Notes under the pieces: generated by a model
Told to the model about the DNA's origin: nothing
The model's database searches: none
What the model saw: only the letters and a program-made list of their open reading frames with translations
In this document: positions 1 to 15,438 of the stretch, one piece after another
How positions within the stretch are numbered: the first letter of the stretch is position 1
Layout: each line of letters opens with the position of its first letter
Translations under genes and position numbers: made by a program
Assembly (NCBI RefSeq): GCF_001941845.1
Contig: NZ_CP018870.1
Location: 1 to 64,000 of the forward strand
From: Streptomyces sp. TN58
Lineage (GTDB): Bacteria > Actinomycetota > Actinomycetes > Streptomycetales > Streptomycetaceae
DNA: 64,000 nucleotides
Reading direction: 5' to 3'

Positions 1-69
1 GATCCCGAGAACATCGCCACCCCTTCCCTGGCGGGCCTCCACGCCGCTTCGAGTTCCGTGGAGTGCCGA

Positions 70-2595
70 ATGCAGAAGTCCGGTGACATCGTGCTGCGTC
101 CTCACCAGGAGGAGGCGGTGGAGGCCATTGTCCGGGGGCTGGATATCCCGCCGGGAAAGCGGATTCCGGAGGCGGGGCTGAGGGCTACAGTCGTTTCCGC
201 GTGTGGAACCGGGAAGACCTTTATCGCCGCGGCGGCGGCGCTGCGGCTGGCGCGGCACGGGCGGGTCCTAGTGCTCCTGCCGACGCTCGATCTGCTGACG
301 CAGACGGTGCGGGAGTGGCGGCTCGCCGGGCACACCGGGCCGGCGGTCGCGGTGTGCTCGCTGGAGGACGATCCGCAGCTGTGGCAGCTCGACGTCCGGA
401 CGACGACGTCGGCGCCCCAGCTCGGGCTGTGGCACGGGCGCGGCCCCGTCACGGTGTACGCCACGTACGCGTCGCTGCCGGTCATCGCCGAGGCGCATGA
501 GGGCGCGTACGGGCTGCCGATGGACGTCTTCGACCTGGTGATTGTCGACGAGGCGCACCGTACGTCGGGGTCGGCGGGGAAGGCGTGGGCGGACGTCCAC
601 CGCCAGGAGGTGATCCCCGCGATGCGTCGGCTCTACATGACCGCGACACCCCGGATCTGGATGGAGCGGGCGCCGGGTTCCCGGGCGCAGGAGCGGGAGC
701 AGGAGGAGGCGCGCCGGCGGGCTGCGGAGGAGGAGCGGCGGGCGCGTGAGGAGGCCGAGGCGGAGGGGCGGGTGTGGGTGGCGCGGCCGCGGTGGGACCG
801 GCTGCCGAAGGATCTCGCGTGCTCGATGGACGATCCGGCGGTGTTCGGGCCTGTTGTTTATGAACTCTCGCTTGCTTCGGCTATTTCCCGGGGGCTTTTG
901 GCGAAGTATCAGATTGTGGTGGCGGAACTCACCGACCCTGTCGTTACTCCGCAGCGGCTGAATAGCGAAGAGCGGTACGAGGAGCAGCTGCGGGGGCAGC
1001 GGCTCGCGGCGACGCAGACCGCACTGCTGGAGACGATGGCCGAGCACGGGCTGCAGACCACCATCACGTTCCACCACCGAACCATGGAGGCGGAGGCCTT
1101 CGCCGTAGGACTGGAGCGGGTCGCCGCGCGGCTGCACGCCGTCGACCCCGGGCGGCACCCGGAGCGGGTGTGGGCCGGGTGGCTGTGCGGGGAACACGAG
1201 GGCTCCCACCGGCAGTCCGTGCTCGCGGACTTCGGGCGCAGGGCCGGGCGCGCCGTGCTCTCGAATTGCCGGGTCCTGGGCGAGGGTGTTGATATTCGGG
1301 CGACGGACAGCGTGGCTCTGATCGATCCGAAGGGGTCGGCCGTCGATATCGTCCAGGCGATCGGGCGGGCATTGCGGCAGAAGCCCGGTGAGGGGAAGAT
1401 GGCCACCCTGATCGTTCCCGTGTTTCTGCGGGAAGGTGAAAAGCCTGAGGACATGCTTTCGTCGAATTCCTATAGGCCTTTGGTGCGGGTTTTGGCGGGA
1501 TTGCGGGCGCATGATGAAAAAGCTGTGGAAATGCTTGCTATTCCTCAGGCGAATCAGAAAAGGGTCGTGGACCCGTCCCGGCCGGTCGGGCAGGAGCCGG
1601 AAGAGGGTGAGGAGGAGTCGCGGCTGCTGCTGAAGTTCGCGACGCCGCGGGACCCGGCGCTGATCGCGAAGTGGATCAGCTACCAGGTGATCAACACCGA
1701 GCGGCAGGACTGGCGTCGGGGCGCCGAGGCCGCCTACCGGTACCGGCAGCGCGAAGGGGACCTGGACGTCCCGTACGAGCACGTGGAGGAGGCGGGGGCG
1801 TTCCCGCTCGGCAGGTGGCTGTCGGACCAGCGGCGGGCGTACCGGGCCGGGACCATGACCGGGGAGCGGGCGGCCGAGCTGGAGGGGCTGGGGGTCGTGT
1901 GGGACACCGCCGACGCCGGCTTCGAGGCCAACCTCGGTGCGGCGCGGGCCTACTACGACCTTCACGGGAGCCTCGCCGCACCACGCGGCGCAGCGATCAT
2001 GGACGTCGCGATCGGTCAGTGGTTGACGAACGTGCGTCGGCCCGGCGGGCTCGGGAAGGACCCGGTTCGCGCGGAGCGGCGGGCGGCGGCGTTGGCTGCG
2101 GTCGATCCGGACTGGAACCCGGCCGTGCTGGGGTGGACGGTGGACTGGCAGCGGCACTACGCCTACCTGACGCAGCTCCTCGCCGAAGGCGCCCGCCTGA
2201 CCGCGGTCGTGCCCGGGGTGACCCGGCACGGGGACGACGTCGGACGCTGGCTCGCCACGCAGCGCAGGAACTGGGGGCGGCTCAACACCGAGCAGCAGCG
2301 CCGGCTCGCCGCGCTCGGCGTGAAGAAGGCCTCACGGGCTCGCAAGACGACGGTGAAGACGGCTGCGGCGTCCGGGCCGCGGGCGGGCGGAGACGCCTTC
2401 CAGAAGGGCCTGCAGGCCCTCGCGCAGTACGTGGCGCGGGAGGGCGGGATGCCGGGACGCGGCGCCGTCGAGGAGCTCGCGGACGGTCCTCACCGTGTGG
2501 GCATCTGGATCGGGAACCAGAAGGCCCGCCGTGACCGACTCAACCCGGCGCAACTCGCAGCGCTCGCCGAACTCGGCGTCGACTGGGCGCGGTAG
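70..2595 (+). CDS. SF2 DEAD/DEAH helicase with helicase-associated repeats
   Basis: An 841-aa superfamily 2 helicase. Visible motifs are the RPHQ-type N-terminal motif, Walker A ACGTGKT (about residue 45), a DEAH box (about 165), TATPRIW (motif III region) and QAIGRALR (motif VI, about 440). A charged Glu/Arg-rich insert lies at about residues 205-240. The C-terminal 300 residues contain about four W-x3-A/Y...LG-x-WL/WI repeats typical of helicase-associated (HA) domains, ending in LGVDWAR. HA domains are thought to bind nucleic acid. The ATG at 70 is preferred over the in-frame GTG at 58 because GGAG sits about 8 bases upstream of it. A truncated paralogue lies at 57.8-58.2 kb. Such helicases are common on Streptomyces plasmids and chromosome arms. 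The family is clear, but the biological role is not. Confidence 0.88.
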   Translation: MQKSGDIVLRPHQEEAVEAIVRGLDIPPGKRIPEAGLRATVVSACGTGKTFIAAAAALRLARHGRVLVLLPTLDLLTQTVREWRLAGHTGPAVAVCSLEDDPQLWQLDVRTTTSAPQLGLWHGRGPVTVYATYASLPVIAEAHEGAYGLPMDVFDLVIVDEAHRTSGSAGKAWADVHRQEVIPAMRRLYMTATPRIWMERAPGSRAQEREQEEARRRAAEEERRAREEAEAEGRVWVARPRWDRLPKDLACSMDDPAVFGPVVYELSLASAISRGLLAKYQIVVAELTDPVVTPQRLNSEERYEEQLRGQRLAATQTALLETMAEHGLQTTITFHHRTMEAEAFAVGLERVAARLHAVDPGRHPERVWAGWLCGEHEGSHRQSVLADFGRRAGRAVLSNCRVLGEGVDIRATDSVALIDPKGSAVDIVQAIGRALRQKPGEGKMATLIVPVFLREGEKPEDMLSSNSYRPLVRVLAGLRAHDEKAVEMLAIPQANQKRVVDPSRPVGQEPEEGEEESRLLLKFATPRDPALIAKWISYQVINTERQDWRRGAEAAYRYRQREGDLDVPYEHVEEAGAFPLGRWLSDQRRAYRAGTMTGERAAELEGLGVVWDTADAGFEANLGAARAYYDLHGSLAAPRGAAIMDVAIGQWLTNVRRPGGLGKDPVRAERRAAALAAVDPDWNPAVLGWTVDWQRHYAYLTQLLAEGARLTAVVPGVTRHGDDVGRWLATQRRNWGRLNTEQQRRLAALGVKKASRARKTTVKTAAASGPRAGGDAFQKGLQALAQYVAREGGMPGRGAVEELADGPHRVGIWIGNQKARRDRLNPAQLAALAELGVDWAR

Positions 2596-2611
2596 GCACC
2601 GTCGGGGGAGG

Positions 2612-2652
2612 AGTTCCTCGCACTGGCCCCCAGCAGACCAGTGCGAGGAGCT
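2612..2652. terminator. Bidirectional hairpin between convergent genes
   Basis: A perfect 11-bp GC-rich stem (CCTCGCACTGG with its complement) extends to about 15 bp with one G-T wobble, around an 11-base loop. It sits exactly between the stop of the helicase gene (2595) and the stop of the reverse-strand gene at 2658, so it can serve both. There is no clear U-tract, which is usual in Streptomyces. Confidence 0.75.
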
Positions 2653-2657
2653 GAGGT

Positions 2658-4040
2658 CTATCGCCGGAAGCCTCGCCGGGGGTCCCGGATGCCGCGGTTG
2701 TCGAACGGGTCGAACCAGGCAGCCTCTCGAAGGTCGCCCACACCCAGGAACTGGTTCGCGGGGTGGTCGGGGTCCTCGATGCCGGTGAACTTGGAGTGGA
2801 AGAGCATCAGGACATCGTGGTCCTGGAACATCAGGTCGGAGCAGCTGTCCCAGCCGTAGTCGTCCTCGTGTTCCGGGAGAGCGTTGTGGTCGTCCTCTGC
2901 AGGGCGGTCTTCGAGGTAGGTCGGGGCGTCTTCGATGGCCAGGTGCAGTGCCATCTCCTCCGCCGTGCAGTTGGGGTTGGGCCAGTTCCCCCTGGCAAGG
3001 TCGGCGGCCAGGTCGTCGAAAGCACGCGCCATGCGACGACGCCAGCGGTGGTCGGCTGTCCATGTGAGCGGGGGCATGCGGTCGAAGACCCCCCAGGTGG
3101 AGGAGTCAGCGTCTGCAAGGAACTGGTCCCCCAGATGCTGCGCGTCGTCGTAGGCCTGGTCTGCAAGGACGACCAGTGCGGTGTGGAGCAGGTCGGCGGT
3201 ACGGGGCGTGAGCTGCCATACGCAGTCCTCGCAGTCCTCGTCTTCGCCCTTGCACGGGCAGTGCCGAGTGGGGAAGAGCGCTGCGAAGTTGGGTGTCTCG
3301 TCTTCGGCTGCGGAGCGTGTCCGCCTGCTTCGCAGGCGCCAGCCGTGAGTGAATCGGGTGACGATCGGTGCCGCGCTCCAGTCAGCCAGCTCGTCCCCGT
3401 CTTCGACGCTCAGGAGCTCCGCGGAGCTCTGTTCTTCCAGGGTCTGGGTTCCGGCGACATCCGGATCCTCGGTGAGGGTCATCACCGCCCCGATCAGGTC
3501 GCGTGGATCGTCGTCGCCGCGTTCGGAGGCCGGCAGCGGCTCCCAGCCACGGTCGATAGCAGCCCGTAGGAGAGCGTTCTCGTCGGTGACGTGGAACTCG
3601 TACAGGTGCGCGATCCGCACGACCTTTCCCGGCAGGTCTTTCAGCCGCGGGTGCCCCACCGGGCCGGACGGTACGTCGGAGACTGTTTCATCTTCGGACG
3701 GATCCGGGTTGGGTACCACGAACAGGGTGCCGGGTTGTGCCTGCCAGGTGCCGGACGCGGCGTGGACGACGGCCTGGCGCAGCGAGCCGGCCGGGGCGTC
3801 CGGCATCTCGGCCGTGAGGGCCTTCAGTTCGTCGTCGACGGCAGTGGCATCCCGCCGGGCCAGGACTCGGCGCAGAATGCCCACCGCTTCGAAGGCCTGG
3901 TCTGGGTCCTTGCAGGTCAGAACGGCGGTCAGGGAACTGGGGCCGTTGTCGTGAGCCAGCAGGGCCATCACCCGGCTCTTGCTGGACGTGTGCTCACACA
4001 GGAAATCGATCGCCCGGGCCACGGGCAGCGATGAAGACAT
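2658..4040 (-). CDS. Hypothetical protein with Cys-rich cluster
   Basis: A 460-aa protein of no recognised family. The ATG at 4040 is chosen over an upstream in-frame start at 4091 because a GGAG lies about 10 bases before it and the extra 17 residues look untranslated. The sequence is acidic and probably soluble, with no signal peptide or membrane segment. Around residues 250-265 there is a compact Cys/His cluster (HCPCKGEDEDCEDC), suggestive of a metal site. It is followed by a helical region with several WT/W-D motifs and an acidic DDYGWDSCSD stretch near the C-terminus. It is co-directional with the gene at 4293-5168, about 250 bases downstream of that gene's stop, so the two may share a transcript. 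No function is inferred. Confidence 0.7.
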   Translation of the reverse strand: MSSSLPVARAIDFLCEHTSSKSRVMALLAHDNGPSSLTAVLTCKDPDQAFEAVGILRRVLARRDATAVDDELKALTAEMPDAPAGSLRQAVVHAASGTWQAQPGTLFVVPNPDPSEDETVSDVPSGPVGHPRLKDLPGKVVRIAHLYEFHVTDENALLRAAIDRGWEPLPASERGDDDPRDLIGAVMTLTEDPDVAGTQTLEEQSSAELLSVEDGDELADWSAAPIVTRFTHGWRLRSRRTRSAAEDETPNFAALFPTRHCPCKGEDEDCEDCVWQLTPRTADLLHTALVVLADQAYDDAQHLGDQFLADADSSTWGVFDRMPPLTWTADHRWRRRMARAFDDLAADLARGNWPNPNCTAEEMALHLAIEDAPTYLEDRPAEDDHNALPEHEDDYGWDSCSDLMFQDHDVLMLFHSKFTGIEDPDHPANQFLGVGDLREAAWFDPFDNRGIRDPRRGFRR

Positions 4041-4292
4041 CGCGGGACTCCAAAGGAAGAGAGCGCGCGCCGGACGAAGCAGCACGCGCACGCGGCAGGA
4101 AGCCCGCTGGTGGACACGGTACGAGCGCGTCCCCGGACGGTGAAAGAAGACTCGAGGAGCCAGCTGGTGCCCCCGCTACGAACGAAGACCCGGACCCGGC
4201 TGCCCCGACCCTACCCACACCCAACCGCGCTCACCCCACGAATCCACAGAAACCTCGCCGGGCGGTACCGAAGACCGGGGGCGTTCCACGAA

Positions 4293-5168
4293 TCAGTAGA
4301 TCCCGATCGCGTCGACGATGATGGCTGGGCCGGCGATGTGGGCGTGAACGTCCTCGGCGGGGAGGTCCAGATTGAAGTGACTGACCAGTTCTCGCACCTG
4401 GTCGTCCACCTGGGTCATCAGGAAGCGCCGCATCATGTGTTCCCAGTCGTGGAGAAGCCACTGCTCAGCGCTGAGGTACCCATCGCTGCCGCCTGGGATC
4501 AGCCTGCTGATGCTGCCCAGGACGCGCAGTTCGCCCTCGATACGGTTCGCTGACGCCTCGCCCAGGAAATGATCCGGTGGCACGTTGATGTAGACCTTCT
4601 GCGGCAGGTTCGATCCGGTGAGCTCCAGCAGGATGGGGATGGGGAGGAGCTCGTTTCGGAGGTACACCTGCTGGAACTGCTCGGCGAGCGGCAGATTGTT
4701 GACATCGAGATCGCGGAGACTGTCCAGGTCTACCGCGACGTTGTCCATGAGCCGTCGAAGGATGTAGAACATCTTCCCGGCCAGACTGGCTGCAGTGATC
4801 CGCGTTGTGCCCTCGATCTGCACCAGGTCGTCCCTGCAGAGGGGTGTCTCGCTGTCCGGGTCGACCTTGACTGCTCCGGCCTCGTTGATCAGCGCGTCGA
4901 TGACCTTGCTGAAGGTGGCCTTCTGCTTCGGGGCGAGCGTGTAAGTGGACTGGAACTCGACGTCGGTTCCCTTGGACCCTTCCAGCGCGAACCCGCCCAT
5001 GCCGGCCTTGCCGCCACCAGTCCGCTTCTGAACGGTCTTCTCAGTGATCTCCGCTTGTCGAGGGACGTCGATGTCGTAGTACTCCGCCTGAGACAGGAGA
5101 GTTTCGGTGTCGAGGTAGATCGGTGACCGCAGCGCCATGCCCAGGAGTGTCTCAGCGACCTCTGACAT
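4293..5168 (-). CDS. DUF6414-like hypothetical protein
   Basis: A 291-aa soluble protein. The N-terminus (SPIYLDTETLLSQAEYYDID), the Gly-rich linker (RTGGGKAGMGG) and a following polar segment resemble proteins annotated DUF6414, whose function is unknown. This assignment is from memory and tentative. The middle (residues 90-180) is rich in Leu and Asp with RDLDVNNLPLAEQFQ. The C-terminus ends in a conserved-looking DWEHMMRRFLM and AIIVDAIGIY. No signal peptide, membrane segment or catalytic motif is seen. The start is uncertain: ATG 5168 and ATG 5138 are both in frame and neither has a strong ribosome binding site. The gene lies upstream of the 460-aa gene on the same strand. Confidence 0.72.
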   Translation of the reverse strand: MSEVAETLLGMALRSPIYLDTETLLSQAEYYDIDVPRQAEITEKTVQKRTGGGKAGMGGFALEGSKGTDVEFQSTYTLAPKQKATFSKVIDALINEAGAVKVDPDSETPLCRDDLVQIEGTTRITAASLAGKMFYILRRLMDNVAVDLDSLRDLDVNNLPLAEQFQQVYLRNELLPIPILLELTGSNLPQKVYINVPPDHFLGEASANRIEGELRVLGSISRLIPGGSDGYLSAEQWLLHDWEHMMRRFLMTQVDDQVRELVSHFNLDLPAEDVHAHIAGPAIIVDAIGIY

Positions 5169-5559
5169 TCCAGTTCGCCAAGGTGGGCGGGGACCGCGGC
5201 GGCGGACGGGGCCAGCACGCCTGGGGTCGCAGGGTGCGGGTAGTAGACCCTGACCAGGCCGCCGGACCGAGTCGGGGAGACTCGCGGTCTGGAAGGCCGG
5301 CGACGCAGAGGACGATCCGCCCGACGCGGTCGTGTTCCCGGGAAGAATTCAGACCGGCCCGTCCCCCTCGTCCCGCACGGCGGGAAAACCTCGACGAGAC
5401 AGCGACCATGTGTCGAAAGTGCCAGAGGTGTGCCGCACACCAGACACCACACAGCAGAGACCCCCACCACCACCGCGCGGCCTGCCACCGCCCACACCCC
5501 CTCCCCCAGCGCGGCCGGCCGTGTCGGCTTCCCGCTCCGGTAGTGCAGCGCCGGGCGTC

Positions 5560-5840
5560 TACCGGCCGTGCCCTGCTGTCTTGCCCGGGGCGGGCTGCCT
5601 TCGGTGGGCGGAACCGCAGCCGGGGCCGATGCGCCGGCACCGCGGGGAGGAGGAGCGAGAGCGGTCAGCAGCCGGGGAGACCGGGGCCGGGAGGCGGCCG
5701 GTGTGCCGGGTAGGGTGGCCAGGGAAGTGAGGGTCGCGTCCACGAGGCGGCCGACCAGGGCGGTGCCCCCTGGCCTGCTGCCAAGTCCTGTCGGTGCGCA
5801 GCCGTCCCGCGCGGATCCTTGATCGGTTGGGCGTCCGTTG
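5560..5840 (-). pseudogene. Decayed copy of the 12.5-kb small-gene family
   Basis: On the reverse strand this stretch reads TALVGRLVDATLTSL followed by a Pro/Ala-rich tail. It aligns with the gene at 12490-12810, which has SALVGRLVDATLTSL, and the DNA of the two is clearly similar over about 200 bases (5600-5785 against 12540-12740). Upstream the match continues only after a frameshift (TWQQA against SWQEA). No intact reading frame remains. The rest of the 5169-5882 interval shows no other supportable gene. Confidence 0.5.
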
Positions 5841-5882
5841 CGAAAGTGCCCGCCCGGGCTGCGGACACGAGACCGTGGTGGA

Positions 5883-7283
5883 GTGAACCATCACCCCGGT
5901 CTTGTGCGGACCGCTCCCCTGCAGGGAGAAACGACCTCGTCGCTGATCTGCCGCATCGCAAGCCGCTACGGGCTGGAGGCGAAGGCATTGCGGTCCGGCT
6001 GGCACTGGCGCAACCACCAGCCCAAGCACGCGGGCGGGGCCTTTCGGGCCGATGCCGAGGTGGTGCTGAACTCAGCCGGGCGGCAACTCCTGGCAGGCCT
6101 GTGCGGCGTCGAGGAGGAGGTACTGGCGCGGGCGTTGCCGTCGTGGGCACAGGAGGACGCCAAGCTATCGGCCGAGGCGACCGGAGTGCCGATGGCGGCG
6201 TGGCGGATCGCCGGCACAGTCGCCGGGCCGGTGGCCTTCGGCTGCCGACTGTGCGCCGCCGGGCGTGCGGGGACGGCCGTGCGCGTCGTGCGGTACGTCC
6301 CGCGGTGGGATCGGGTGTGTGTACGGCACGGACGGTGGCTCTTCGATGCGGACGCCGACCAGCCTCTTGAGTACCTGGACGTACGGCAGCTGCCGGAAGT
6401 GGCTGCGGCGCAGCGGCGGTGGGCCGGGGTGGCGCGGCGGGCGGTGCGGGGCGGGGTCGGGCCGGAGAGGGTGTTCGCGCTGGCGTATGCGGTGGTGGGT
6501 CGTTGGTGGGAGCAGGCGTATGCCTGGGAGCGGGAGACGATCTGGCCGCGGCGGCTGCATCAGGTCGCTGGTGGTGACGCCGGAGGTGATCTGGAATGGT
6601 GGCGGATCGTGGGGCGGGATCCGGTCGTCTTCCCTGAGGTGGTGGTGGTTGCCGAGGCGTTGTTGAGTCCGGGTATGGCTGAGCTGGTGTGGGTGGACAG
6701 TGGTGCGGGGCGGCCGCGGGTGCTGCCAGCCGACGGGATGTTCTGTCGTCGGCTCGGGGAGCGGGTCGGGCGCGTGTGGCTGGGGCCGTTGGCGGCGACG
6801 GATCATGGAGGTCCGCTGATCTCCTGGATGGGCAGCGTCATCCGCCGGCGCCGCACCGCAGCCGGCGGGCCGACCGGGTACGCGGACGATCCGTGGTGGG
6901 TGCGCCAGGAACATCAGCCGGCGACCATGGCCGGACAGTTGCGGGTGCTCGGCAAGGAGAAACGGGCGCCGGGCTCGGGGACGATGTGGCGGACGGTCGT
7001 GCCGCCCGAGGAGCGGGCGCGGATCGGCAGTCTCATCGACGGTGCCGAGGAGCAGCTCGCCCAGCTGCGCGGCGTGCAGAGCGGGCCGACTGCCGAGGTC
7101 GCGGAGCAGCTGCTGCGCGGTCTCGGTCATAGTGCCGGTCTGATCGAGGCGGCCTGGAAGCGGAGCGCGGTGGCGGCGGTGAACGGCGGGGTGCCGCTGG
7201 AGGAGGTGGCACGGTGGGTGAACATGCCTGTCGAGGAGCTCAGGAGCATGCTGACGGCGGGCAGGCAGGAAGACGGCAGTTGA
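5883..7283 (+). CDS. tniQ: TniQ/TnsD-type transposition target-selection protein
   Basis: A 466-aa protein with the TniQ layout. The N-terminus has P-x-GE-T-x-SL-x-RIA (about residues 15-28). A zinc-finger region has CRLC near residue 121 and CVRHGRWL near 147. The C-terminus is helical with helix-turn-helix-like segments (LEEVARWVNMPVEEL). In Tn7-like and Tn5053-like elements TniQ/TnsD binds DNA and couples the target to the AAA+ regulator TnsC. The GTG at 5883 follows a GGTGGA sequence and puts the conserved N-terminus near the start. An in-frame extension to 5838 is possible but adds no recognisable sequence. It lies 160 bases upstream of tnsA on the same strand, whereas many actinobacterial modules place tniQ last. 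Confidence 0.85.
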   Translation: MNHHPGLVRTAPLQGETTSSLICRIASRYGLEAKALRSGWHWRNHQPKHAGGAFRADAEVVLNSAGRQLLAGLCGVEEEVLARALPSWAQEDAKLSAEATGVPMAAWRIAGTVAGPVAFGCRLCAAGRAGTAVRVVRYVPRWDRVCVRHGRWLFDADADQPLEYLDVRQLPEVAAAQRRWAGVARRAVRGGVGPERVFALAYAVVGRWWEQAYAWERETIWPRRLHQVAGGDAGGDLEWWRIVGRDPVVFPEVVVVAEALLSPGMAELVWVDSGAGRPRVLPADGMFCRRLGERVGRVWLGPLAATDHGGPLISWMGSVIRRRRTAAGGPTGYADDPWWVRQEHQPATMAGQLRVLGKEKRAPGSGTMWRTVVPPEERARIGSLIDGAEEQLAQLRGVQSGPTAEVAEQLLRGLGHSAGLIEAAWKRSAVAAVNGGVPLEEVARWVNMPVEELRSMLTAGRQEDGS

Positions 7284-7442
7284 GGACGAAGCACGACGGC
7301 TTTGTCGGCTGTTAGCTGATACTGCACTCGTTTGTGGAAGGAATCCTGAAAACAGCGGCGTCTGTCGGCGGGTACGGCTTGGCTGACGCGGGTGATCAGC
7401 ACAGGTGGGGCACGGCCCGGGGACCGGGCAGGGCGAGCGGTC
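7284..7442 (+). promoter_or_regulatory. tniQ-tnsA spacer, candidate TnsB-site or promoter region
   Basis: This non-coding spacer contains TGTCGGCTGTTAGCTGA at 7303 and a related TGTCGGCGGGTACGGC at 7366, in the same orientation. TGT is the conserved outer trinucleotide of Tn7-like ends, and TnsB binds short direct repeats there. No inverted partner could be found by eye downstream of tnsC, so an end is only a candidate. The spacer could equally be the tnsABC promoter. Confidence 0.3.
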
Positions 7443-8201
7443 GTGGACAGTGGGAGCGGGTTCGAGGCGGTGTTCCTCGACCCGGTGGGGCAGTCGGTGC
7501 AGCAGCGGTGGGCGGATGCAGCCATGACGGTGGCGTTCGAGGAGTTGCCGCCGGTGTCGGCGTTCCCGGTGGTGCCGGGGCGGCGTTGGGGGCCGGGACT
7601 GTGGTGGTCGGCGACCACCGGACGGCACGTGGCCGCGGGGTCGAACGCAATGCGCACCCAACTGATGGCCCTGGACCGCGACCCACGCGTGACCGGGCTC
7701 GCCGGGCGGCCGGTACGGCTGCTGTGGCGCGACGAACGGGGACGGGTGCGTTCCTGGGTGCCGCAGCTGTTCGCCCGCTACCGCGACGGCACGGGCCTGC
7801 TGGCCGACTGCCCCAGCCACCCCGACGCCGGTGGCGAACGTGCCCTGGGCGCCGCGCACGCGGTGGCCAGGGCGTGCGGGGACATCGGCTGGGCCTACCG
7901 GCGCCTTTCACCGCTCGACGATGTGCCGGCCTCCAATCTGAAGTGGCTGGCCGGCTATCGCCATCCCCGCAACGCCGGCCGCCCGGGCCTGACGCCCGCG
8001 GCTGTGGAAGCGTTCGCGCGACCGCGGCCGCTGATCGAGGGAGCCGAAGCTGTCGGTGACCCGATCGAGGTCCTTCCCGTCGTCTTCCACGCCCTGTGGC
8101 ACGGGCAGCTCACGACGGACCTGGAGGCGCCGCTGCACGAGTGCGTCCCCGTCGGCCCCAGGGACTGGAACGGTCTGGGCCGGACGGGAGGTGCCGGGTG
8201 A
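7443..8201 (+). CDS. tnsA: TnsA-like transposase endonuclease subunit, probably catalytically degenerate
   Basis: A 252-aa protein with the fold signature of actinobacterial TnsA-like subunits: LMALDRDPRVTGLAGRPVRL, then SWVPQLFARYRDGTGLLAD, a helical segment with DIGWAYR, and LKWLAGYRHPR. TnsA cuts the 5' strands at Tn7-type ends and partners with TnsB. Typical family members carry ESxLE, VPDF and VK at the corresponding places. Here they read GSNAM, VPQL and a Pro, so the Glu, Asp and Lys of the nuclease site all appear substituted. The alignment was made from memory. The GTG at 7443 follows AGGGCGAGCG; a GTG at 7392 is an alternative. The stop overlaps the tnsB GTG by two bases (GTGA). Confidence 0.78.
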   Translation: MDSGSGFEAVFLDPVGQSVQQRWADAAMTVAFEELPPVSAFPVVPGRRWGPGLWWSATTGRHVAAGSNAMRTQLMALDRDPRVTGLAGRPVRLLWRDERGRVRSWVPQLFARYRDGTGLLADCPSHPDAGGERALGAAHAVARACGDIGWAYRRLSPLDDVPASNLKWLAGYRHPRNAGRPGLTPAAVEAFARPRPLIEGAEAVGDPIEVLPVVFHALWHGQLTTDLEAPLHECVPVGPRDWNGLGRTGGAG

Positions 8202-10315
8202 GCGCGCGGCGCACTGCCCGGCCGGCCGTGGCGGTCGGGGCGCATGTCCGTTTCCGCGGTGTGAAGTGGCAGGTGGTCGCTCTGTCCGGACAGATGGTTC
8301 ACCTCGTCGGCCCGGACGGCGGCGGTGAGGCGGTGCTTGCCGGGTACCTGTTCGCCGATCCCGGCTTCAGTGTCATCGGGGCGGAGGTGCCGCAGGCGGC
8401 CCCGCAGTGGGGGCTGTTCGAGACCGCGCCCGCCGCGGCGCGGGAGAAGGCCCTGGCCTGGCAGCGGCATGTCCGGGAAGTCGAGTGCGGCCTTGCCGAC
8501 GGGCCCGGCAGCGGTGGAGTGGTGCGGGAGCAGTACGACCCCGCACGACACACGCTGGCCGAACGGGAGCAGGCCAAGGCCGAGGAACTGACCGCCCTCG
8601 GTTTCGGGCGGGTGTCACGTACCACGGTGCAGCGCATGCGCCTGGCCTACCGCAAGCAGGGACTGTGGGGGTTGCTCGACCACCGCACCACCCGCGCCTC
8701 CAGCTCTACCGGGCGCTCCGACGAACGGGTCGTCGCAGCCGTGCGTGAGGCGCTGCGCCGCCGGCGCGGGCGTTCCAGGGGCACCATCAACGGCCTGTTC
8801 CCGCTGATCCACCAGATCCTTCAGGACCGGCACGGCCCCGGTGCGGTGCCCGTGCCGTCCCAGGCCACGCTGTACCGGCTCGTCACCTCCCTCGCCCGCC
8901 CCGGTGAACTGCCCAGTGGCCCGGTGCGGCAGGTGCCCGCGAGCGTCGAGGGGCGGGCCTTCACCCCCGCCACCGCGCTGCGGCCCGGCGAGCAGGTCCA
9001 GATCGACACCACCCGCCTGGATGTCCTGGCCCTCTTCGACGACGGGCGCCTCGCCCGCCCCGAGCTCACCATCGCCGTCGACGTCGCCACCCGCGCCATC
9101 CTCGCCGCCGTGCTGTGCCCCAGCGCGACCAAGTCCGTGGACGCGGCCCTGCTGCTGGCGGAGATGGCCGTCCCGCACCCGGCCAGACCGACCTGGCCGG
9201 ACATCCTGCGCATGGACCACGCCCGCGCGCTCCCCTACCAGCAGCTGGCCACGCTGGATGAGCGCCTGGCCGGCGCGGCGGCCCGGCCGGTCGTCCTGCC
9301 GGAGACGATCGTCGTCGACCGGGGCAAGGTCTTCGTCTCCGCCGCGTTCACCGCCGCCTGCGAGACCCTCGGCATCAGCGTCCAGCCCGCCCCGCCCCGC
9401 GCCCCCACCGCGAAGGGCATCGTCGAGCGCACCTTCGGCTCTATCAACGCCCTGTTCTGCCAGCACCTGCCCGGCTACACCGGATCCGACGTCACCCGCC
9501 GTGGCCCCGAGGCCGAGAAAGACGCCTGCTTCAGCGTCGCCCAGCTGCAGGACCTGCTTGATGAGTGGCTGGTGCACTACCACCACCGGCCCCATGAAGG
9601 GCTGCGCCACCCGATGATGCCCAGGAAGGCGCTCACCCCGAATGAGATGTGGGGCGCGCTCGTCGCCGTCGCCGGATACGTGCCCGTCCCGTTGACCGGG
9701 CGCGACTACCTCGAACTGCTGCCCGTGCGCTGGCAGGCCATCACCCCCGCCGGCATCACCATCCGCCACCGCACCTACGACGCAGATCTCCTCGCCCCGC
9801 ACCGCGGCCAGGCCTCCCCCGTCGCCGGCCGCGGCGGGAAATGGGAGATCCACTACAACCCCCACGACGTCCGCCAGATCTGGATCCGGCTCCCCGACGG
9901 CGAACTCACCGAGATTCCGTGGATCCACCGCGACCACGTCCACCGGCCGTTCGACGAACACACCTGGCAGCACATCCGCACCCAGGCCACTGACTGCAAC
10001 CACGGTGACGCCGAGCAGCACGAAGCCCGCCTCGCCGACGCCCTCGACCAGCTCATGCGCCGCGTCCACAGCGGCCACGCCACCAAGACCGAACAAACCC
10101 TCCTGGCCCGCACCGCTCACGTCCCACTCCCCACAGCCCGCAATGGGGCCCACGGCACCGAAGCACCCGCCGACAGCCCGGAACAGCGGGACGACGACAC
10201 CATCGACGACCTCGACGACCTCGACGGCCTCGACGACCTGCCCGACGACGTCAGCCCCGCCCCGGCCACCGGACTCGGGCTCTACAACGCGCACGAGGAA
10301 GCCGACAAGTGGTGA
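8198..10315 (+). CDS. tnsB: TnsB/Mu-type DDE transposase
   Basis: A 705-aa retroviral-integrase-fold transposase that would join the 3' ends of a Tn7-like element. Catalytic residues are visible as D270 (QIDTTRLD), D374 (IVVDRGK) and E410 (AKGIVERTFG), with the expected D-35-E spacing. N-terminal winged-helix/HTH DNA-binding segments include VSRTTVQRMRLAYRKQGLWG. The C-terminal region has YHHRPHEGLRHP and a beta-barrel-like segment typical of MuA/TnsB. The tail is very acidic (DDLDDLDGLDDLPDD) and may contact TnsC. The GTG at 8198 is chosen because GGAGGTG lies just upstream and it overlaps the tnsA stop. Reading from an upstream in-frame start would lie inside tnsA. The stop overlaps the tnsC start. 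Confidence 0.93.
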   Translation: MSARRTARPAVAVGAHVRFRGVKWQVVALSGQMVHLVGPDGGGEAVLAGYLFADPGFSVIGAEVPQAAPQWGLFETAPAAAREKALAWQRHVREVECGLADGPGSGGVVREQYDPARHTLAEREQAKAEELTALGFGRVSRTTVQRMRLAYRKQGLWGLLDHRTTRASSSTGRSDERVVAAVREALRRRRGRSRGTINGLFPLIHQILQDRHGPGAVPVPSQATLYRLVTSLARPGELPSGPVRQVPASVEGRAFTPATALRPGEQVQIDTTRLDVLALFDDGRLARPELTIAVDVATRAILAAVLCPSATKSVDAALLLAEMAVPHPARPTWPDILRMDHARALPYQQLATLDERLAGAAARPVVLPETIVVDRGKVFVSAAFTAACETLGISVQPAPPRAPTAKGIVERTFGSINALFCQHLPGYTGSDVTRRGPEAEKDACFSVAQLQDLLDEWLVHYHHRPHEGLRHPMMPRKALTPNEMWGALVAVAGYVPVPLTGRDYLELLPVRWQAITPAGITIRHRTYDADLLAPHRGQASPVAGRGGKWEIHYNPHDVRQIWIRLPDGELTEIPWIHRDHVHRPFDEHTWQHIRTQATDCNHGDAEQHEARLADALDQLMRRVHSGHATKTEQTLLARTAHVPLPTARNGAHGTEAPADSPEQRDDDTIDDLDDLDGLDDLPDDVSPAPATGLGLYNAHEEADKW

Positions 10316-11367
10316 ACACCCCCCACCCCACGACGCCGAACCTGAGCCGCACACCAGTCGGCACCAGCGGCAGTGGTGCGGCCGAGCCATCCTGGCCGCT
10401 GACCACCTGGCAAGGCTGGCAGCGCTTCGCCACCACCGACCCCGTCGCACCGCCCCAGCCCGGCGATCCGCCCCGCAGTACAGAGGAACGCCTCGCCTAC
10501 CACTCCAGCTTCGTCACCATCCGCACCCCCGCCATCCACACCCTGACCACCCAGGTCCGCACCCTGATGATCCTCGGCCGCCACCAGCAGAACACCGCAC
10601 GGCCCTCACTGATCGTCACCGGACCCGCCGCAGCCGGGAAAACCACCGCCCTCCTCAACGTCGGCCGCACCTGCCACCTCGCCCACACCCGCAAAAACCC
10701 CGCACCACCCGGATCAGCCCACACCGCGGTACCCGTCGCGTATGTCCTGGTCCCGCCCGGCGCGACCGCGAAAACCCTCGTCACCGAGTTCGCCCGCTAC
10801 CTCGGCATCCCCGTCACCGCGCGTATGACCCAGACCCAGATCACCGATGCCGTCTGCCACACCTACACCCAAGCCGGCGTCCAGCTGGTGATGATCGACG
10901 AGATCCACCGCCTCAACCCCCGCACCACCACCGGCGCCCAAACCGCCGACCTGCTCAAAGACCTCAGCGAACGCCTCCCCGCGACGTTCGTCTACGCCGG
11001 CATCAACGTCACCGACACACCCCTCTTCAGCGGGACACGGGGCGCTCAACTCGCCGGACGCGCCACCCTCGTCGACTGCGGCCCCCTCCCCGCCCGCCAC
11101 GGCACCCGCCAACCCTTCCGCGACGCCATCACCGACATCGAAAACAACCTCGACCTCCAGCAGCACAAAGCCGGCACCCTCCCGGCCCACGCCCCCTACC
11201 TCCACCAGCGCACCGCCGGCCGCATCGGATCCCTCACCCGACTCATCCGCCAAGCCGCCATCACCGCCATCTGCGACGGCACCGAACGCATCACCAAAAC
11301 CGCCCTCGACGCGGTACGACTCGACCACCTCGCCGAAACCCACCACCGCCCCCACCGACGCCGATAA
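10309..11367 (+). CDS. tnsC: TnsC/TniB AAA+ transposition regulator
   Basis: A 352-aa AAA+ ATPase. Walker A is GPAAAGKTT (residues 105-113) and Walker B is LVMIDEIHRL (193-202). After these come a sensor-1-like FVYAGINV, an arginine-rich segment, and a C-terminal helical lid (GRIGSLTRLIRQAAITAI). In Tn7-like systems this protein assembles on target DNA and passes the target signal from TniQ to TnsB. Two consecutive GTG codons (10309 and 10312) overlap the tnsB stop, so translational coupling is likely and either could start the protein. The N-terminal 60 residues are Pro/Thr-rich and probably disordered. Confidence 0.9.
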   Translation: MVNTPHPTTPNLSRTPVGTSGSGAAEPSWPLTTWQGWQRFATTDPVAPPQPGDPPRSTEERLAYHSSFVTIRTPAIHTLTTQVRTLMILGRHQQNTARPSLIVTGPAAAGKTTALLNVGRTCHLAHTRKNPAPPGSAHTAVPVAYVLVPPGATAKTLVTEFARYLGIPVTARMTQTQITDAVCHTYTQAGVQLVMIDEIHRLNPRTTTGAQTADLLKDLSERLPATFVYAGINVTDTPLFSGTRGAQLAGRATLVDCGPLPARHGTRQPFRDAITDIENNLDLQQHKAGTLPAHAPYLHQRTAGRIGSLTRLIRQAAITAICDGTERITKTALDAVRLDHLAETHHRPHRRR

Positions 11368-11727
11368 ACCCCACCTACCAAACAGACAGGCAGAACAGCC
11401 CTGACCAGCACAAACACCAACCGGGCCTTTACACGCCAGAACTACTTACAACGAACCCTGCCGCCCTCAACACGAAACACATAACCCCAGCTCACACACC
11501 CCAGCCACCCCGCCGAACCGCCAAATCCACCTCTCAACGAACCCACAACACCCCAGGCCACCAACGACCCGACACACCAACAAACCCCCCACCGAGCGTT
11601 ACTCCTCGCGCTAGCGCTACCGGAGCATGGCCGGCCAGTCCGCCCCGGCATCAGCCTCAGGCCGTCGTCACACCGCGACCACACCCTCCCTCCGGCAACC
11701 GAAACCCAAGGCGCAGACCAGGCTCGG
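11368..11727. other. Non-coding A/C-rich interval after tnsC
   Basis: No supportable gene in 360 bases. The strand is strikingly C/A-rich, with many short CCAACCCC- and CACAAACACC-like words and a perfect GCGCTAGCGC palindrome near 11609. If a right end of the Tn7-like element exists it should lie here or beyond. No clear inverted copy of the 7303 sequence was seen. Confidence 0.4.
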
Positions 11728-12100: not shown

Positions 12101-12172
12101 GCGTGATGGAGCAGGGACGAGCCATGGCCCGGAAGACCCACAGCCGGAACGCGTGCGCGGCGCGGGCGGCGC

Positions 12173-12493
12173 TCACAGCAGCGTTGCCAGCAAGTGGAGG
12201 GGCCCGTAGAGCACGGAGCAGGGTGCGCATGAGGAGGAGCCCTCCGAGCATCTGCAGCCAGAGTCCCGCGCCCGCTGCTGCTGCGTTGCCTGGCGGCCGG
12301 CCTCGTGCTGCGGGAGGTGCAGGACGCCCGAGCGCCACGCACCTGCCAGCACCACGGTCCCGGCCAGCAGGGTCAGGGCCGTGCCCACGACCTCGTACCC
12401 GGACCACTGCGCCCACCAGCCGGCCGTGGCCAGCACGAGACCCGCCAGCGCGCTGCCACCGGCCCGGCGCTGCCTGCCCGTCATCACCATCAC
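12173..12493 (-). CDS. Small membrane protein
   Basis: A 106-aa protein with two predicted transmembrane segments near the N-terminus (SALAGLVLATAGWWAQW and VVGTALTLLAGTVVLAGAW), followed by a polar, Cys-containing tail. Its ATG overlaps the stop of the upstream gene (12490-12810) as TGATG, which suggests translational coupling and joint function. No family recognised. The last 40 residues have weaker coding character, so the natural protein may originally have ended earlier. Confidence 0.5.
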   Translation of the reverse strand: MMVMTGRQRRAGGSALAGLVLATAGWWAQWSGYEVVGTALTLLAGTVVLAGAWRSGVLHLPQHEAGRQATQQQRARDSGCRCSEGSSSCAPCSVLYGPLHLLATLL

Positions 12494-12810
12494 CGCCTAC
12501 GCCCCGCGCCCCTGACGGGTGCGGCCTGCTGCCGGTGGGTGGGGACCGCGGCCTCCGCCGGGGCCGGCCGGCCGGGGGCCGCGGCGGCAGTGGGGGTGGT
12601 GGTGGAGCGGGAGCGGGCGGCGGCCGCGGACACCCGGGGCCGGGAGGGGGCCGGTGCGCCGGGCGGGGTGGTCAGGGAGGTGAGGGTGGCGTCGACGAGG
12701 CGGCCGACCAGGGCGCTGCCGGTGGCTTCCTGCCAGGAGGTGGCGGTGGTGAGGCGGTTCAGGTGCTGGGCGACGGTGTCGGTGCCGTGATGTTCGCCGA
12801 GCTGCTGCAT
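12490..12810 (-). CDS. Hypothetical protein of a locally duplicated family
   Basis: A 106-aa protein beginning MQQLGEHHGTDTVAQHLNRL. It has a helical N-terminal half (TSWQEATGSALVGRLVDATL) and a disordered Ala/Pro/Thr-rich C-terminal half. Parts of the gene recur at 5600-5785 and 12016-12100. No good ribosome binding site precedes ATG 12810, and an upstream in-frame extension to 12924 exists. It is coupled to the small membrane protein downstream. Function unknown. Confidence 0.5.
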   Translation of the reverse strand: MQQLGEHHGTDTVAQHLNRLTTATSWQEATGSALVGRLVDATLTSLTTPPGAPAPSRPRVSAAAARSRSTTTPTAAAAPGRPAPAEAAVPTHRQQAAPVRGAGRRR

Positions 12811-12936
12811 GCGGGGTCTCGGTGTCGCGGCGGTGCTCGTACTCCTGGCAGCGGGCCGGCGGATGCGGCCGGAAAACCCCGCCCAGGTTCGGAGGATTCT
12901 TGTCGTATCGCGGGCGAGTCGCATACGTTGACCTGC

Positions 12937-15438
12937 ATGTATAGGGGGATGGAGCTAGCGGGCCGCTACCGGCTCGAGAGCCGGTTGGGGCACGGCGGCA
13001 TGGGCGAGGTATGGGCGGCGTCCGATCTGAGGCTGCGCCGTACCGTCGCGGTCAAGACGGTACTCATCTCCCATCTGCGTGACGAACGGCTCGCTGCCCA
13101 GGTCCTGGCCCGTTTCCGCCGTGAGGGCGAAGCAGCCGCCCGGCTGAACCACCGCAACATCGCCGTCGTCCACGACCTGGGCGAGCACCGGGAGACGAGC
13201 GCCGACGGGCAGGTGGAAGTCTCTCCGTTCCTCGTCATGGAGTTCCTGGAAGGTCGTGATCTCGCGACGGTCCTGCGCGAGGACCACCCCGGCGGGCTCC
13301 CGCTGGAGCAGGTGGTGGAGTACGGCGCCCAGGTGTGCGACGGGCTGGCCGCCGCCCACACGCAAAACATCGTCCACCGCGACATCAAGCCGGCCAACCT
13401 CATGCTGCTCGACGACGGCACCGTAAAGATCTGCGACTTCGGGATCGCCCAGGTCCAGGACGGCACGATCGGCCTGACCATGACCGGAGCGCTGCTCGGC
13501 AGCCCTCACTACATGGCTCCCGAGCAGCTCAGAGGCCAGACACCGACGCACTCGGCCGACCTGTATGCCCTGGGTGCCAGCCTCTACGAGCTCCTCACCG
13601 GGCGCCCCCTGTTCACCGCGGACTCCGCGTACGCCATCATCGCCATGCATCTGTCCACCACTCCCGAACCGCCCAGCACCCGCCAGCCCGCAATCCCGCC
13701 CGACATCGACAACCTCATCACCTCCCTTATTGCCAAAGACCCCGCCGGCCGTCCCCCCACCGCCAAAGACGTCGCCGCACGCCTGCGCACCGCCCACCTC
13801 GCACCCGGGCCCACCCCCGTGCCGGCAGCGGAGGCGTCGGAAACCGACGAGCAGCTCCTCCAACGGGACGCCGAAGCCGGAGACTCCGACGCCATGTACA
13901 GCCTCGCGTGGCTGCTGCAAGAGGCTGACCGCATCGACGAGGCAGAAACCTGGTACCGGAAGGCCGCCGACGCCGGACAGATCGACGCCATGAACAACCT
14001 CGGCGTGCTGCTGGAGAACACCGGCCGCACCAACGAAGCAGAAACCTGGTACCGAAAAGCCGCCGACGCCGGACAGATCGACGCCAGGAACAACCTCGGC
14101 GTGCTGCTGGAGAACACCGGCCGCACCGACGAGGCGGAAACCTGGTACCGGAAAGCCGCCGACGCCGGAAACACCGACGCCATGAACAACCTCGGACTGC
14201 TGCTGGAGAACACCGGCCGCACCGACGAGGCAGAAACCTGGTACCGGAAAGCCGCCGACACCGGAGACACCGACGCCATGTACAGCCTCGGAGTGGTGCT
14301 GGCCGGCACCGGCCGCACCGACGAGGCAGAAACCTGGTACCGGAAAGCCGCCGACACCGGGCACACCGACGCCATGACCAACCTCGGAGTGGTGCTGGCC
14401 TACTCCGGCCGCACCGACGAGGCGGAAACCTGGTACCGGAAGGCCGCCGACGCCGGACAGATGAACGCTACGGCCAACCTCGGAGTGGTGCTGGCCGGCA
14501 CCGGCCGCACCAACGAGGCAGAAACCTGGTACCGCAAAGCCACCGACGCCGGAAACACCGACGCCATGCACGGCCTCGGAGTGCTGCTGGCCAACACCGG
14601 CCGCACCGACGAAGCAGAAACCTGGTACCGGAAAGCCATCGACGCCGGAAACACCGACGCCATGAACGACCTCGGAGCGCTGCTGCATAACACTGGCCGC
14701 GAGACCGAGGCGCAACCCTGGTTCCAGCGCGCCGCCGAAGCCGGACACACCAACGCTATGAACAATCTCGCACTGCTGCTGCATAACACTGGCCGCGAGA
14801 CCGAGGCGGAACCCTGGTACCGGCGCGCCGTCGACGCCGGAAACACCAACGCAATGAACAACCTCGCACTCCTGCTGGAGAACACTGGCCGCGAGACCGA
14901 GGCGGAACCCTGGTACCAGCGCGCCGTCGACGCCGGAAACACCAACGCAATGAACAACCTCGGCATGGTGCTGGAGGACGCCGGCCGCACCAACGAGGCA
15001 GAAACCTGGTACCGAAAAGCCACCGACGCCGGGAACACCGGCGCCATGACCAACCTCGGACTGCTGCTGGAGAACACCGGCCGCACCAACGAGGCAGAAA
15101 CCTGGTACCGAAAAGCCACCGACGCCGGACAGATCAAGGCCATGAACAACCTCGGGGTGCTGCTGCAGACCACTGGCCGCGAGACCGAGGCGGAACCCTG
15201 GTACCAGCGCGCCGCCGACGCCGGAAACACCGAAGCCATGAACAACCTCGGAGTGGTGCTGCAGGGCACCGGGCGCACGGCCGAAGCAGAAACCTGGTAC
15301 CGGCGCGCCGCCGAAGCCGGAAACGCCCCTGCCATGAACAACCTCGCACGGCTGCTGCAGAACACAGGGCGGGCGGCCGAGGCAGAAACCTGGTACCAAC
15401 GCGCCGCCGGCAACCCTGACGGTGAAATCCGGGCCTGA
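12937..15438 (+). CDS. Soluble Ser/Thr protein kinase fused to TPR/Sel1-like repeat array
   Basis: An 833-aa protein. Residues 1-280 form a Hanks-type kinase: glycine loop GHGGMGEVW, catalytic Lys in VAVKTV (about residue 40), HRDIKPAN (about 148), DFGIA and APEQL. All key residues are present. No transmembrane helix follows the kinase domain, unlike PknB-type receptors, so it is probably cytosolic. From about residue 308 there are some 15 tandem repeats of 32 residues with consensus EAETWYRKAADAGNTDAMNN then LGVLLENTGRTD, a TPR/Sel1-like helical hairpin that usually binds partner proteins. Start choice is between ATG 12937 and ATG 12949; neither has a well-spaced ribosome binding site, and leaderless translation is possible. 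A long upstream in-frame extension is not protein-like. Confidence 0.88.
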   Translation: MYRGMELAGRYRLESRLGHGGMGEVWAASDLRLRRTVAVKTVLISHLRDERLAAQVLARFRREGEAAARLNHRNIAVVHDLGEHRETSADGQVEVSPFLVMEFLEGRDLATVLREDHPGGLPLEQVVEYGAQVCDGLAAAHTQNIVHRDIKPANLMLLDDGTVKICDFGIAQVQDGTIGLTMTGALLGSPHYMAPEQLRGQTPTHSADLYALGASLYELLTGRPLFTADSAYAIIAMHLSTTPEPPSTRQPAIPPDIDNLITSLIAKDPAGRPPTAKDVAARLRTAHLAPGPTPVPAAEASETDEQLLQRDAEAGDSDAMYSLAWLLQEADRIDEAETWYRKAADAGQIDAMNNLGVLLENTGRTNEAETWYRKAADAGQIDARNNLGVLLENTGRTDEAETWYRKAADAGNTDAMNNLGLLLENTGRTDEAETWYRKAADTGDTDAMYSLGVVLAGTGRTDEAETWYRKAADTGHTDAMTNLGVVLAYSGRTDEAETWYRKAADAGQMNATANLGVVLAGTGRTNEAETWYRKATDAGNTDAMHGLGVLLANTGRTDEAETWYRKAIDAGNTDAMNDLGALLHNTGRETEAQPWFQRAAEAGHTNAMNNLALLLHNTGRETEAEPWYRRAVDAGNTNAMNNLALLLENTGRETEAEPWYQRAVDAGNTNAMNNLGMVLEDAGRTNEAETWYRKATDAGNTGAMTNLGLLLENTGRTNEAETWYRKATDAGQIKAMNNLGVLLQTTGRETEAEPWYQRAADAGNTEAMNNLGVVLQGTGRTAEAETWYRRAAEAGNAPAMNNLARLLQNTGRAAEAETWYQRAAGNPDGEIRA
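13860..15405 (+). repeat. Tandem 96-bp repeats encoding the kinase C-terminus
   Basis: About 15-16 tandem units of 96 bp, each encoding 32 residues and highly similar at the DNA level. Two sub-types are visible, ETWYRKA units and EPWYQRA/EPWYRRA units (units 9-11 and 14), in a pattern consistent with block duplication inside the array. Confidence 0.9.

Follow-up and report, generated by a model that had tools for sequence, protein, structure and literature searches.

The window, the whole 64-kb stretch of DNA that was analysed, belongs to a linear chromosome of 7,585,034 bp, whose left end it forms; dnaA lies near the middle (3.95 Mb). The right chromosome end carries a mirror-image tnsA copy, and the 64 kb of the window are 100.0% identical to the inverted right end. 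The tip palindromes of the telomere are absent from the assembly of the window. The element described here occupies positions 1..11601 of the assembled sequence, with the chromosome end on one side and the only transposon end that was recognised on the other; the homology of many relatives ends at 11599-11602. It starts with an inward-reading helicase gene (58..2595, plus strand) with helicase-associated domains (Pfam HA in four stretches, ResIII, DEAD and Helicase_C), which we take to be TtrA-like; a comparable helicase lies near a contig end in three other genomes (G321, G351 and G334). Two leftward genes, one of them DUF6414, separate the helicase from a tniQ-like target-selector gene (5838..7283, plus strand), whose Pfam TniQ match (E = 1.2e-4, 23.2 bits) is below the curated cut-off of 27. 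Then follow, all on the plus strand, tnsA (7443..8201), tnsB (8198..10315) and tnsC/tniB (10309..11367). The DDE transposase TnsB (Pfam rve and Mu-transpos_C) has D270, D374 and E410, and direct reading places its GTG start in a 4-nt overlap with the tnsA stop (GTGA). The AAA+ ATPase gene tnsC overlaps tnsB by 7 nt; its product matches Pfam TniB (59.9 bits) and AAA_22, and GPAAAGKT and VMIDE were read directly. The terminal 28 bp of the sole recognised end are at 11574..11601 on the minus strand (TAACGCTCGG...TTTGTTGGTGT read inward). Having TnsB, TnsC and TnsA, the element falls under the definition of Tn7-like transposons given in the excerpted part of PMC11406308, that is, TnsB and TnsC plus TnsA and/or TniQ.

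Two directly repeated copies of about 139 bp, 83% identical to each other, flank tniQ-tnsABC at 5646-5783 and 12598-12735. A long frame at 12103-15438 encodes a protein-kinase domain and many TPR units, and within it the DNA has a periodicity of 96 bp over about 13.8-15.4 kb. Further inward, 25.9-28.6 kb of the window matches telomere-side DNA of the element in several other strains, hinting that an older telomeric element may be buried within the present repeat.

The tnsA frame is open and encodes 252 amino acids, of which residues 23-237 match the NCBIfam family NF033179 ('TnsA-like heteromeric transposase endonuclease subunit') with 284.1 bits, passing the curated cut-off of 110. No Pfam family, PF08722 included, was matched by the protein at E 1; PF08722 was matched at E 0.1 by all 29 rows with an intact site in one alignment. 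The initial annotation had claimed that the Glu of ESxLE, the Asp and the Lys of the nuclease site are replaced by Gly, Gln and Pro. This was borne out by the alignment, which has G66 at the first Glu of ESxLE, M70 at the second Glu, Q108 at the PD Asp, a retained D122, and P124 at the Lys/Arg position, the latter being Arg in the near intact relatives. The corresponding codons, on the plus strand, are 7638..7652 (G66...M70, ESxLE to GSNAM), 7764..7766 (Q108) and 7812..7814 (P124). The signatures LMALDRDP and LAGYRHPR, said to remain, are both there.

Which of the two Glu residues is catalytic was read from a profile alignment against the PDB. A profile of the intact relatives matched PseCAST TnsA (E 0.0016-0.0024), with residues 36, 73 and 89 of the TnsAB fusion chain, counted along the alignment, opposite the second Glu, the PD Asp and the Arg, respectively. 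Once a constant offset of 2 is subtracted, they correspond to E34, D71 and K87, the PseCAST TnsA triad according to the excerpted part of PMC13228271. A profile of intact and inactive sequences mixed found no TnsA in the PDB. By this mapping the second Glu of ESxLE is the catalytic one, and it is also lost in the window TnsA. A Glu-Asp-Lys/Arg triad of the PD-(D/E)xK type was not found at these positions, which hold M70, Q108 and P124, and the protein is predicted to have no nuclease activity. The fold is kept: AlphaFold gave similar elements for the window TnsA and an intact relative (pLDDT 93.3 and 92.7), and the four Foldseek matches in the PDB at E <= 0.001 were Tn7 TnsA (1t0f, 1f1z) and a TnsABCD-DNA complex, with E values from 3e-7 (1t0f) to 9e-6. 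The TM scores (query) of about 0.46-0.53 mean that this is a match at the level of the family, not a close one.

To see how widespread the substitutions are, 184 loci were reduced to 100 non-redundant rows by dropping sequences with internal stops, poor coverage or more than 88% identity; two sequences (L072 and L101) start inside the protein, hence their odd appearance in the alignment of all 184. In thirty rows the five site columns invariably read Glu, Glu, Asp, Asp and Arg. The other 70 share the substitutions: Gly in the first column and Asp in the fourth in all 70, Met, Val or Gln in the second (68, 1 and 1), Gln, His or Asp in the third (63, 6 and 1), and 53 Pro, 9 Ala, 1 Arg and 7 others in the fifth. 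Hence 69 of the 70 lack the third-column Asp and 69 lack Lys/Arg, the exceptions being L156, which keeps Asp, and L135, which keeps Arg. Misalignment was rejected as a cause: the first two columns separate the 70 rows from the 30 completely, L156 and L135 alone overlap in the remaining ones, and the PDB mapping fits one offset. The catalytic Lys/Arg column, Arg in 30 of 30 near intact relatives, is Lys in some more distant ones. Outside Streptomyces, where 36 genomes matched, the 18 loci examined all keep Glu, Glu, Asp and Arg or Lys. Further typing of 49 loci, some of them re-fetched from the first set, gave 17 inactive ones and 32 others; the latter include L268, with Trp in place of the Arg, and a degenerate sequence of 33% identity, L277.

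In a quick tree search without bootstrap, the 70 inactive rows form one side of a branch with an SH-aLRT of 100. This branch persists after removal of the three catalytic blocks and also with 19 further intact rows, which have long branches in the outgroup. Median dN/dS is 0.286 among the inactive (887 pairs) and 0.249 among the intact sequences (30 pairs), for pairs with dN below 0.3 and dS of 0.1-1.2; with a median of about 0.7, dS is partly saturated. These values indicate that the inactive clade is under purifying selection, and a pseudogene was rejected on account of the open frame and of a dN/dS close to that of the intact relatives.

In elements with an inactive TnsA, the DDE of TnsB is intact in 62 of 64 covered cases (six more had no coverage), and in both exceptions the gene concerned is followed by another tnsB with DDE present. 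Such tandem tnsB pairs after tnsA occur in one sub-clade: L196, L200, L285, L306 and L104 (in G096, G022, G347, pNL15-2K-Lin and G138, respectively). The first gene of the pair has ADA, AAA, ADG, ADA and ADL in place of DDE; the second keeps DDE in the four cases covered, G138/L104 being covered for the first gene only. From L106, which is also in this sub-clade, no tnsB could be read. A pair of one inactive and one active TnsB would fit an element with one end to process.

The number of ends was examined in the window and in relatives. With up to three mismatches, the 28-bp end pattern has one match in the 64-kb window, with none expected, and no exact-pattern match to a second end was found on the telomere side within the window. 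With a shorter core of the end, one more match (two mismatches) came up at 63 kb, a position that is not part of the element. The terminal sequence ...ACACCAACAAACCCCCC..AGCGT[T/C]A was found with at most two errors in 22 of 80 related loci, at 23 places, followed by differing DNA wherever the sequence continues. The transposon end coincides exactly with the end of five draft contigs and with an assembly gap in two more; one of these contigs (L021) extends for more than 180 kb on the telomere side. Two loci (L049 and L027) have a second right end further in.

Two of three pairs of intact elements are two-ended with 5-bp duplications. Those of G096 and G025 have perfect terminal repeats (TGTCCGTTCCC and TGTCCTGTCGCA), and all four copies are flanked by duplications (TGGGC, GCACC, CCGTG and ACCGC); the third, G090, has no clean ends. 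A local-alignment score test for a second end did not discriminate: the two intact controls have tip matches of 11 and 12 bp yet do not exceed the best shuffle, and in the same test the inactive ends have no match at the tip on the telomere side. The stretch 5300-5838 of the window gave an internal match of 28 against a maximum of 26 over 60 shuffles, in a test in which the controls are not above shuffles. A compact two-ended transposon of 5.8 kb was considered and rejected, since its left boundary (5812-5840) is merely the conserved leader of tniQ and no shared end. Altogether, the exact-pattern search and the comparison of relatives reveal one end and no pair of ends with a 5-bp target duplication. 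The other boundary of the window element appears to be the telomere itself. One specific end with the telomere opposite is the anatomy seen from tip to end in relatives, and the window has the end at 11601.

Comparison of near-identical copies revealed the extent of the unit that spreads. In G066 the left and right arms are identical exactly to the transposon end and then diverge. In G117 the left end of the chromosome and the two ends of the plasmid agree from the tip palindromes, where there are small differences, to ...ATCAGCGACA at 6599, beyond which chromosome and plasmid differ. Both ends of the S. longwoodensis plasmid NZ_CP107814 are identical over 14,329 bp to ...GAGCGTTA and then diverge. 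Streptomyces sp. NBC_00984 has a 9.2-kb unit (99.9-100%) on two plasmids with three different flanks, which stops at ...AGCGTTA plus one or two chance G. A near-identical unit from tip to end with differing flanks was thus found in four strains. The several near-identical copies in NBC_00984 would fit copy-type movement; recombination could also multiply ends. The first five flank bases on the left and right are ACGAA/ACTGC in G066, CCGCC/AAGGC in CP107814 and GGTGG/TCGCC in CP108735, and a common 5-bp duplication was found in none of these three pairs. Just past the transposon end in the left arm of G066, L113:11163-11404 is 81% identical to the stretch of the element about 500 bp before its end; apparently this element inserted into one of its own relatives.

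Identity is not always confined to the unit. It continues past the located end in G228, in plasmid CP107794 and in the window's own genome (64 kb, 100.0%), extends beyond tnsC or through the whole stretch compared in G047, G108, G151, G284, G347 and CP108736, and breaks inside tnsA in CP109587. In a set of five linear plasmids, identity ceased at the end twice, passed it twice and was lost within tnsA once. We attribute these departures from the unit to later recombination. In G094 (L185-L188), chromosome and linear plasmid C2 are 100.0% identical over at least 40 kb from the end.

The two kinds of element differ in their position. Inactive elements (n = 31) are at a median of 12.2 kb from the replicon end, 29 of them within less than 70 kb and all 31 oriented inward, whereas intact elements (n = 22) are at a median of 1.45 Mb, with only two at less than 70 kb and 15 oriented inward (one-sided Mann-Whitney p = 3e-9 for the distance). 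These figures refer to a hand-compiled selection of matches on complete or nearly complete replicons in which mirror twins were counted once; G162, one contig of a 40-contig draft, is included, the row of the second G154 copy is gapped in the first site column, and the rotated assemblies G390 and G007 and the 80 related loci are excluded. An internal inactive copy in G390 (5.6 Mb) was dropped because the assembly starts at dnaA (1.2 kb) and is therefore probably rotated. The assembly of G007, which has an intact element, is apparently rotated as well (dnaA at 244 kb), and near-end positions would look internal in it. Inactive copies far inside are those of G165 (362 kb) and of a G204 plasmid (102 kb); L077, of the inactive type and outside the selection, points outward on an 11.3-Mb chromosome, about 305 kb short of its right end. 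Among plasmids, 41 of the 60 records listed (of 93 matched) have at least 46.8% identity, a median distance to the end of 6.4 kb and inward orientation in 37 cases; the other 19 have a median distance of 32.8 kb, with six inward. The residues examined in six of the 41 records (eleven stretches) were all of the inactive kind, and at least two plasmid records are in common with the hand-compiled selection. Judged by residues and positions, the putative loss of the nuclease is the hallmark of a clade whose elements reside at the ends of chromosomes and plasmids.

Hsieh et al. (Science 2025) are reported to have named the telomeric transposons of linear bacterial replicons. Their abstract is said to describe one specific end with the telomere as the other boundary, in hosts that include Streptomyces and cyanobacteria. 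On this description, the anatomy of the window element is of that kind; telomeric transposons are already known. In the literature searched for TnsA together with telomeric transposons, loss or an inactive site, no naturally inactive TnsA clade was recognised, which is no proof of novelty. With Tn7 and Tn7-like elements (TnsABC and TniQ) the window element shares the genes, the fold of TnsA and the DDE of TnsB, but it differs from Tn7 in lacking the nuclease triad of TnsA and in having one recognised end instead of two and no visible target duplication. The intact actinobacterial NF033179 elements (G096 at 5.0 and 6.1 Mb, and G025) are the sister group in the TnsA tree and have the same tnsA-tnsB-tnsC order; they differ by an intact triad, terminal inverted repeats (TGTCC..GGACA), 5-bp duplications and a mostly interior position in the chromosome. 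Tn5053 and type V-K CAST (TnsB-TnsC-TniQ) likewise have no cutting by TnsA, so copy-type movement is expected of them according to excerpts of PMC8188705 and PMC11406308. Unlike the window element, in which tnsA is retained, overlaps tnsB and is under purifying selection, they lack tnsA altogether.

What the loss of TnsA cutting does to a Tn7-like element has been described. In the excerpted part of PMC8188705, more than 95% of the reads were cointegrates when TnsA of a CRISPR-associated Tn7-like element carried a catalytic mutation; in that of PMC11406308, elements without a working TnsA form a branched intermediate that is completed by replication; and PMC8649781, as excerpted, has mutations in the catalytic site of tnsA abolish cut-and-paste but not replicative transposition and several branches lacking tnsA.

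In the reading that we favour, at a probability of roughly 70%, the window element is a telomeric Tn7-like transposon that copies the telomere to new sites and has kept TnsA as a non-cutting subunit. The mobile unit would extend from the telomere to the single TnsB end at 11601. TniQ and TnsC would pick the target, and TnsB, to judge from its intact DDE, would nick the 3' strand at the lone internal end and join it to the target. With the telomere as outer boundary, cutting of both strands would strip the donor of its chromosome end; because TnsA, by its residues, can no longer nick the 5' strand, the donor chromosome end would not be severed. The free 3' end of the target would prime copying outward to the telomere, where normal telomere synthesis would finish the process, such that the donor retains its telomere and the target arm gains a new one. 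The inactive TnsA would be a structural partner of TnsB and TnsC, presumably kept because one or the other needs it. A copy-type pathway or a structural TnsA had been proposed in the initial annotation on the premise that TnsB, TnsC and TniQ stay active. Loss of the nuclease with retention of TnsB and TnsC agrees with this, TniQ being sub-threshold, and we infer a copy-type pathway as the best account, in which the copying itself would be as outlined; ordinary two-ended cointegrates now seem unlikely. The structural role is likely from purifying selection, the conserved fold and the overlapping reading frames.

TnsB-type transposases normally require two paired ends, and telomeric transposons reportedly move using two ends. 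One could therefore imagine that the ends of two telomeric copies, from both chromosome ends or from two molecules, are paired, that the loss of TnsA cutting leaves a branched product resolved by replication, and that the target is split into two capped pieces. Identical copies at both ends of a replicon are indeed common. Against this, which we consider unlikely, the three left/right pairs whose flanks differ do not share a duplication in the first five flank bases; the argument carries little weight, since a partner piece that has no origin would be lost. A spread of chromosome ends by homologous recombination between arms and plasmids, with the Tns genes as passengers and a decayed nuclease, would agree with the mirror-image repeats that often extend past the transposon end and with the telomere exchange and terminal recombination described for Streptomyces (PMC7205883 and PMC8743542, as excerpted). 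However, it is very improbable in view of the four strains in which identity ends at the transposon end before unrelated flanks and of the five draft contigs that stop there; the dN/dS of 0.286, the conserved replacement residues (Gly, Met and Gln) and the DDE kept by TnsB oppose decay. Of the two papers, PMC7205883 describes telomere turnover without any word beginning 'transpos' in its main text, and PMC8743542 names classical transposition as one possible route.

Two further possibilities would leave cutting in place. TnsA could have a different working active site or a new catalytic role, with cut-and-paste continuing; D122, kept in 70 of 70, and the conservation of the replacement residues themselves speak for it, but Met, Gln/His and mostly Pro/Ala at the triad positions are not the usual metal-binding set, and we consider it very improbable too. 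That another, intact TnsA in the same cell provides the nuclease has hardly any probability: both kinds coexist in some genomes (e.g. G058 and G108), but at E 0.001 the window genome has no other recognised relative of TnsA, and Pfam's domain for the TnsA N-terminus gave no match in it at E 1, searches that a very different kind could escape.

Returning to the telomere-copying transposon, its history may have been simple. A two-ended ancestor with a working TnsA would have lost the nuclease once, when or after turning telomeric. It is tempting to speculate further, although we rate the chances at slightly under even, that this single ancient loss turned a two-ended cut-and-paste element into a one-ended copier of telomeres to other Streptomyces replicons, that the non-cutting TnsA was what enabled the change, and that in the sub-clade with paired TnsB one subunit serves the uncut telomeric side. 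The intact two-ended elements, the inactive one-ended elements and the inactive elements with paired TnsB form a natural series for the non-cutting roles of TnsA. If true, the copying of telomeres by an element with a non-cutting TnsA would explain, at the level of single residues, how such transposons could spread while leaving intact the chromosome end from which they start. It would also provide a mechanism for the rapid turnover of telomeres and the exchange of ends between chromosomes and plasmids known in Streptomyces.
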